A program made the translations under genes and the position numbers. DNA of 64,000 nt, taken from Xestospongia muta. Its lineage: Eukaryota > Porifera > Demospongiae > Haplosclerida > Petrosiidae. Location: NCBI GenBank assembly GCA_963693285.1, contig OY848919.1:3663827-3727826 (forward strand), in the 5' to 3' direction. The notes beneath the pieces were generated by a model. It was not told where the DNA came from. It worked only from the letters and a program-made list of their open reading frames with translations, and did no database searches. Of the stretch, positions 1,151 to 63,821 are shown piece after piece (position 1 is the stretch's first letter; each line of letters opens with the position of its first letter).

Positions 1151-1644
1151 ATGTTGCTCAAACTTTTGTTAGGGCTCTTACTCTGCTTATTTTCAAGAGA
1201 TACAGTAGTTGCTCAAATATGTACAAATAATGGCTCAGTTCGTGTGGTAAGTTATCAATTTCACATAATATATTGTATAGTGCTCATTTTCTAGTCCTCA
1301 TCTTCTTCCTATGGAGCTGTTGAAGTCTGCTTTGAAAATATTTGGGGTGCTATTTGTACTGATATGTGGGATAACAATGATGCTAGTGTTGTCTGCAAGC
1401 AACTGGGATACTCTCTTTATGGTAAATAAAGTTTGCCTAATGTGTTTTATTAGTAGGTTATTTTATATTATGTATAGGTGCAGTAGGATCTTCTATAGCC
1501 TACTACTCCTTATCAGATCCCCTTTTTTTGTTCGTTTAAACTGTATTGGTAATGAGACCACTATACTGGACTGTCCTCATTCTCATTATCTTGATTTTGA
1601 CTACAGTTGTTCACTGAGTACAAATGCTAATATATTTTGTCAAT
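1151..1644 (+). CDS. Gene A signal peptide and SRCR1 (exons 1-3; exon 3 frameshifted)
   Basis: Exons 1151-1246, 1295-1421 and 1478-1644. The ATG at 1151 opens a Leu-rich signal peptide ([14 protein letters not shown]) ending near DTVVAQ, followed by the SRCR start CTNNGSVRV. Exon 1 ends in phase 0; all later SRCR junctions are phase 1. Exon 2 carries VEVC, the W-D pair and VVCKQLGY. Exon 3 is 167 bp where 168 is needed; against the pseudogene copy (16102 onward) it has lost 7 bases around a T-run near 1530, giving an early TAA. The same exon in gene B (22042-22206) is intact. Because exon 3 lies between two phase-1 introns, skipping it restores the frame and costs only half a domain. Confidence 0.7.

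Positions 1645-63821: not shown

Follow-up and report, generated by a model that had tools for sequence, protein, structure and literature searches.

Fusion of one extracellular domain array to several different membrane tails raises the question of whether the genes concerned form a single recognition system with several outputs, a set of adhesive proteins anchored in different ways, or no common system at all. The question arises here from a stretch of 64,000 nucleotides of the sponge Xestospongia muta (the window), in which three genes, A, B and C, carry long arrays of SRCR domains. The contig to which the window belongs measures 13.6 Mb, in a genome of 158 Mb; together with 200 kb of flanking sequence, the window makes up the 264 kb studied. 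A small gene finder that had learned from the window's SRCR exons was run on sub-ranges to predict exons; the gene models are splice predictions, in which each tail is joined to its array by a predicted splice.

Anatomy of the genes and their tails

Gene B (21298-41541, plus strand) has a signal-peptide exon (21298-21390, right end approximate), an array of 24 SRCR domains that defines positions 1-24 (21858-35220), 34 EGF repeats (35325-41060) and a transmembrane segment (TM) with a short NPLY tail (41323-41541), the splice to the last EGF being inferred. Each SRCR domain has two exons, and the array exons in the models begin in phase 1; exon 1 of position 4 has an apparent GC donor (about 23390). 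Pfam family PF00530 scored above its cut-off in all four of the position-24 domains tested, and 18 of the 24 domains in B's set have 4+4 cysteines, the eight that we take to be the group B SRCR pattern. The EGF stalk and NPLY-bearing TM first proposed for B were borne out, with 34 EGF matches and with EGF_CA recognized by Pfam. Among nine NPLY-class tails read, including paralogues on contig C13 at 45-51% identity, the NPxY motif is kept in eight (seven NPLY, one NPQY), the ninth reading NPLF; a tenth tail, that of gene G5 in the flank, also has NPLY. In G5 and another flanking gene, G6b, the reading frame that B uses meets a stop just ahead of the TM (118040-118290 and 163320-163600, both outside the window), which perhaps reflects soluble forms or another splice.

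Gene A (1151-15266, plus strand) is predicted to begin with a signal-peptide exon (1151-1241) and 21 SRCR domains (1295-11316), which correspond to positions 1, 2, 5-13 and 15-24, positions 3, 4 and 14 being absent. These are followed by a hormone receptor (HRM) domain (11835-12080; 41.6 bits in Pfam when scored alone), a pre-GPS region with the GPS itself (12187-13513, GPS at 13379-13513 with the residues HIT), a seven-transmembrane (7TM) region (13595-14827) and a cytoplasmic C-tail (14976-15266). The stretch upstream of the GPS is called GAIN by location, there being no Pfam match in it. A frameshift in exon 2 of position 1 (about 1478-1644) adjoins a C/T homopolymer, and either a pseudogene or an assembly error would account for it. 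The identification of a 7TM receptor is firm (7tm_2, 182.6 bits against a cut-off of 20.6; 9.9e-54); the best solved relative is ADGRL3, and a database search returned 59 relatives, mostly adhesion/secretin-type GPCRs and some of them from sponges (Dysidea, Corticium). The GPS scored 20.4 bits, below the curated Pfam cut-off of 22.5. HIT is kept in all five HRM-type GPS copies read, one of which has a stop, and all five are without the second and fourth cysteines, which we count as part of the GPS motif. We infer that A may cleave itself, as had been assumed from the start.

Gene C lies on the minus strand and runs from beyond the window's right end, at about window coordinate 72000, to 45646. 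It has a signal peptide (outside the window) and 36 SRCR domains. Those of the array within the window (51026-63821) comprise the end of one copy of positions 3-6, one whole 3-6 block and positions 7-24, after which come four extra SRCR domains (49225-50929). The tail consists of an IPT/TIG domain (48917-49174), AMOP (47773-48336), VWD (46650-47216), C8-3_MUC4 (46322-46565), two EGF-like exons (45969-46229) and, on the exon at 45918-45646, a TM, read by eye, with a short basic cytoplasmic tail. Pfam upheld the AMOP, VWD and EGF that had been proposed and added C8-3_MUC4; the IPT/TIG domain was unlisted in a scan of the whole tail, and scored 27.3 bits, above its cut-off of 20.9, when taken alone. 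The order of AMOP, VWD, C8-3, EGF and TM resembles that of membrane proteins of the MUC4/SUSD2 type, judged by how MUC4, SUSD2 and Mesh are built over their full length, but here some 28 or more SRCR domains precede the tail. A database search with C's tail returned 24 proteins, among them a sea urchin SUSD2-like protein; two weak ones (P0019 and P0020) have SRCR and EGF domains and match through the EGF. In P0005, a metagenome protein that its source calls DMBT1, a vWA domain occurs together with C8-3_MUC4 and VWD.

The preliminary description had counted three tails, which proves to be too few: a fourth, Ig-EGF-Ig-GPS-7TM, occurs in the surrounding 264 kb and elsewhere in the genome. It is borne by genes G1 and G2 and, as a partial copy with stops, by G4. 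In G2 it is recognized by 7tm_2 (74.1 bits) and GPS (50.1 bits) in Pfam; its second Ig is Pfam-supported, its EGF lies just above the cut-off (22.1 against 21.5 bits), and its first Ig, searched with an incomplete query sequence, lies below the Pfam cut-offs. In a first model of G4, which lacked some exons, 7tm_2 found no match.

A shared order of SRCR domains

Array exons throughout the 264 kb were matched to B's 48 exons irrespective of order, and the longest increasing run of matches was scored; in the B reference, the peptide for exon 2 of position 18 came from C and three exons were entered by hand. The correspondence of A3-A11 to B5-B13 and of A12-A21 to B15-B24, which had been drawn from the sequence alone, emerged from this unordered matching. 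The longest run covered 40 of 41 exons in A, 42 of 42 in G1, 47 of 47 in G2, 48 of 48 in both G5 and G6b, 46 of 46 in G6x, 34 of 34 in G7, 12 of 12 in G4 and 14 of 15 in G6r. It was lower in C (50/64) and G3 (47/64) because positions 3-6 are present there three times. The earlier alignment of C3-C24 with B3-B24 needs correcting in that C, followed beyond the window, reads 1, 2, (3-6) three times, 7-24 and the four extra domains. Chance order is ruled out: the best of 1000 shuffles of A gave a run of 16, against the observed 40 of 41, and no shuffle of any array exceeded 19.

The idiosyncratic domains that had been noted as landmarks were confirmed, VWFG at position 18, WSKIC at position 9 and NEGNVQIC at position 24. 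A phylogeny of the individual A, B and C domains (66 rows, built by a quick method with no mixture model), which the preliminary description had named as its own test, grouped the domains by position at 24 of 24 positions, and so rules out grouping by gene.

Tails in the cluster and in the genome

The tails recur along the 264 kb. G3 bears the tail of C, with 93-99% identity wherever the piece compared stays clear of introns, G5 and G6b have the EGF/NPLY tail, and G7 has an EGF tail whose TM falls outside the part read. G6x and G6b stand head to tail at 128040-155813, outside the window; neither position 24 nor a tail was found for G6x. Relics lie between the genes. An A-type 3' end, behind the VWD-tailed G3 and before A, starts left of the window and occupies its positions 1-501 (plus strand); first-SRCR exons with four EGF matches follow A (15784-17324, plus strand); Ig, EGF and the start of a second Ig from the fourth tail lie behind B's own tail (42047-42640, plus strand); and an inverted gene start, with a signal-peptide remnant and a first SRCR, lies behind C (42606-45098, minus strand).

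Across the genome, a tail was counted when it lay at most 12 kb downstream of an array-exon match on the same strand. From 150 matches listed, 53 were hand-picked by identity; they are not a gene census, and some are second copies within one gene. A tail of one of the four kinds follows 45 of these 53, on the same strand and 0.5-8 kb away. At least 37 distinct tails stand behind them: 15 of the Ig-7TM class (three of which rest on the position-20 exons L059-L061), 10 VWD, six HRM-7TM (one, beside G6r, a relic) and six NPLY. Sequence was taken at 35 loci on contigs C1, C2, C3 and C6; positions 23 and 24 stand in order at 31 of them, one of these broken by stops, and position 22 comes directly before at 22; the others have duplicated or deleted units or are not position 24. 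At seven of the 35, position 24 is succeeded by an SRCR resembling the first of C's extra domains; five of the seven are VWD-tailed and two have the tail unread.

These counts bear on whether arrays and tails might be adjacent but separate genes, joined by annotation. The joins are drawn by the splice model alone, as that explanation would have it, but it has to contend with the recurrence of a same-strand tail downstream of 45 of 53 matches, with a signal-peptide exon ahead of seven arrays (A, B, C, G1, G2, G3 and G5, none being found before G4, G6x, G6b or G7), and with an Amphimedon protein model, P0028, in which position 24 and an additional SRCR behind it belong to a single protein. We regard such an artefact as very improbable, and treat array and tail as parts of one predicted protein in what follows.

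Array segments exchanged across tail classes

Genes of one tail class group together at positions 22-24, where in a tree of eight genes the VWD, Ig-7TM and NPLY classes each form one clade (100/100); in an earlier tree A groups with the HRM relic and the tail-less G6x (99/100). At positions 7-10, G1, which has an Ig-7TM tail, joins the VWD-tailed C and G3 (100/100), a grouping that was named once the earlier tree had been seen, and a grouping of G1 with G2 is rejected (p_AU 3.2e-46). The reverse holds at positions 22-24, where the grouping of G1 with C and G3 is rejected (p_AU 5.5e-7). Exon identities inside G1 change accordingly from C-like to G2-like: at exon 2 of position 9, G1 is 95% identical to C and 71% to G2, and at exon 1 of position 24 it is 85% identical to C and 98% to G2. 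Two strong and opposite tree results within one gene show that segments were exchanged. The blocks are otherwise mixed, the G1-G2 grouping being rejected at positions 11-14 (p 0.0013) and not at 19-21 (p 0.18), and the NPLY class not being rejected at positions 7-10 (p 0.16).

Grouping by tail class at positions 22-24, together with a mosaic across classes upstream, argues that array segments have moved between differently tailed genes. In the predicted genes such exchange is shown for G1, G2, C and G3, and conversion and crossing-over are alike possible as its mechanism. Synonymous divergence is also low at some positions (mean dS 0.11-0.18 at positions 13, 15, 16 and 17, against 0.51 at position 5), which could be explained by exchange.

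A tree of positions 23-24 was made from 40 rows, leaving aside L063 for its stops, L059-L062 for want of a position 24, and the unlabelled G6x. With its six unlabelled rows removed it has six tail changes, where four states need a minimum of three; one unlabelled row, L030, is the end of G7 and is EGF-tailed. The HRM class forms one clade, and the VWD rows are the deepest and scattered. Their placement suggests that VWD may be the oldest tail, on a tree with only a midpoint root, and the tail changes themselves are counted on a tree that exchange may have disturbed.

Constraint on the array

The whole array was compared in 11 chosen pairs, dropping exon copies with stops or less than 60% of full length. 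Pairs that share a tail gave dN/dS ratios of 0.27-0.39, and pairs with unlike tails, A left aside, gave 0.29-0.35; the ratio was 0.44-0.45 in two pairs that include A. The array is under purifying selection in the 11 pairs compared, and their range of 0.27-0.45 rules out diversifying selection across it. The term repertoire, used at first for the ligand-binding part, is misleading in this light, the array being conserved apart from length-variable tracts of Tyr and Trp. A Tyr/Trp run of four or more occurs in some copy at seven of the 48 exon positions, with lengths from 1 to 11 across copies; examples in B lie at 26462-26683 (position 6) and 28145-28333 (position 9). These tracts are candidate variable loops, or may have arisen by triplet-repeat slippage.

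The array in other sponges

A search for the array in other sponge genomes had been suggested. A database search found 4061 proteins, of which 120 were listed and 19 hand-picked for comparison. The order is kept in 11 of the 19. Six are from the sponge Amphimedon queenslandica (P0028, P0036, P0042, P0063, P0069 and P0127) and five are others (P0025, P0026, P0032, P0033 and P0100); P0028, P0036, P0100 and P0127 skip some positions. In another sponge species the order is thus retained with domains 41-79% identical. The remaining eight of the 19, namely P0038 (Amphimedon), P0044, two Ephydatia and two Geodia proteins, and one each from cod and starfish, are without it. P0028 has, behind position 24, a further SRCR that resembles the extra domains of C. 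P0026, a metagenome protein, has after position 24 a segment with an Ig-like look that falls short of Pfam's thresholds (16 bits for Ig_2, where 27 are required) and has no match within the 264 kb.

A link to the putative aggregation receptor of Geodia cydonium, a multi-SRCR sponge surface protein reportedly described by Blumbach in 1998, had also been offered, and finds no support as far as the comparison went, which covered two SRCR proteins, both from Geodia barretti and neither of them colinear with the array. The G. cydonium receptor has short consensus repeats, unlike the tails of X. muta.

Expansion of SRCR genes in sponges is already known, as are SRCR-bearing adhesion GPCRs. A. queenslandica is described as having 296 SRCR superfamily genes, in tandem and with EGF_CA as the commonest partner domain (PMC10855680), and sponge expansions are reported elsewhere (PMC4704026; PMC8242945). 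An SRCR gene up-regulated by microbial patterns has also been described (PMC6208332). The A. queenslandica units described there are of one or two domains, mostly with three exons per domain (PMC10855680), whereas here each domain has two exons and the 24 positions keep a fixed order. SRCR domains ahead of a GPCR, as in A, are reported for Aq712029 and Aq715659 of Amphimedon (PMC4302439) and for adhesion GPCRs of amphioxus (PMC2246102), in accounts whose relevant sections describe no array common to other tails. Placozoan GPCRs have C-type lectin ectodomains (PMC6321704). Our literature searches, which are no proof of absence, returned no paper on one SRCR array common to several tails, and none with both SRCR and AMOP.

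A possible multi-output receptor family

Part of the multi-output recognition locus first proposed stands, in that one ordered array is found on several tails with the positional phylogeny that was predicted; recognition and output are what we infer beyond it. The starting point is what the predicted genes themselves establish, namely their anatomy and colinearity, the division of the tails into classes, a mosaic of exchanged segments ahead of position 22 and an array under purifying selection. The family would consist of giant surface receptors, tandemly amplified and partly dispersed. In each, a signal peptide would lead into about 24 SRCR domains in a conserved order, followed by one tail from an interchangeable set of at least four: HRM-GPS-7TM; Ig-EGF-Ig-GPS-7TM; about 34 EGF domains, one TM and an NPxY motif; or four more SRCR domains, IPT-AMOP-VWD-C8-3-EGF and one TM. 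Exchange, together with similar constraint in same-tail and different-tail pairs, fits a shared recognition surface. Arrays would then bind overlapping ligands, probably microbial or self glycoconjugates judging by SRCR proteins elsewhere, and exchange would keep the surface common to the tail classes. Depending on the tail, the same binding event could have different outcomes: G-protein signalling from the two adhesion-GPCR types, adaptor binding or endocytosis from NPxY, and adhesion or barrier anchoring from the MUC4/SUSD2-like tail.

A precedent for such logic is provided by the vertebrate paired receptors of the CEACAM and Siglec-11/16 families, described as having similar ectodomains, different signalling ends and adjustment by gene conversion (PMC5112662; PMC5701461). 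The X. muta genes resemble them in placing a near-common ectodomain on different signalling tails and in the exchange of ectodomain segments between tail classes (G1, G2, C and G3). They differ in using SRCR rather than Ig domains, about 24 of them, in having at least four tails that include two 7TM types, and in being known from genes alone; the paired-receptor logic would thus be extended to more than two outputs. A multi-output receptor family of array and interchangeable tails, working like the paired receptors, is in our judgement somewhat more probable than its absence. It is favoured, besides order and exchange, by the retention of NPxY and HIT in the tails and of the array order in Amphimedon proteins. 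Against it count the frameshift in A, the stops ahead of the TM in G5 and G6b, the lack of diversifying selection over the array, the sub-threshold segment of P0026 and the tree blocks at which grouping by tail class is not rejected. The fuller scheme is put forward tentatively, at rather less than even confidence: a fixed-order ectodomain that predates the split from Amphimedon and is kept common by exchange, at least four tails swapped behind position 24, and Tyr/Trp-rich loops, variable in length and confined to a few fixed positions, that tune binding, the whole being a non-vertebrate analogue of the paired receptors with more than two outputs and a candidate for self/non-self or symbiont discrimination.

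The conservation of the array can also be read in another way, namely that these are structural or cell-adhesion proteins of matrix, barrier or aggregation, with no role in sensing, whose tails serve to place the adhesive. An array that is conserved and not diversifying, the long EGF stalk and the AMOP-VWD-C8-3-EGF-TM tail would all suit such proteins, but the presence of 7tm_2 in two of the four tails, and of length-variable Tyr/Trp-rich tracts at fixed places, suits them less well; we consider this account doubtful, though far from negligible. If the arrays of a multi-output family share ligands, sponges would have one recognition surface with several outputs, kept in step by recombination, a logic that to our knowledge is known only from vertebrate immunity. 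The genes would offer definite material for testing how sponges distinguish self, symbiont and food bacteria, and a case of signalling tails exchanged behind a frozen ectodomain.

Tails away from the array

Tails also seem to live elsewhere. Among the tail matches listed, no listed array match was found within 12 kb upstream for 19 of 34 Ig-7TM, 27 of 37 VWD, six of 12 NPLY and three of nine HRM. Such tails, the relics of other tails and gene starts between the genes, and array exons that begin in phase 1 are what would be expected if tail shuffling were a neutral by-product of phase-1 exons and tandem duplication, the ligands of the paralogues having diverged so that no common system exists. 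This explanation sits uneasily with an order that survives in a second sponge species although its domains are only 41-79% identical, with purifying selection that is similar across tails and with the presence of every tail class in several copies, and we think it unlikely.

The Ig-type 7TM tail gave 149 exon matches, about 118 of them off contig C3 and mainly on contigs C5 (0.93-1.32 Mb), C12, C7 and C2, a large pool of adhesion GPCRs. The VWD exon of C has relatives, about 48-52% identical to it, that form clusters on contig C2 at 12.07-12.16 and 12.81-12.86 Mb.
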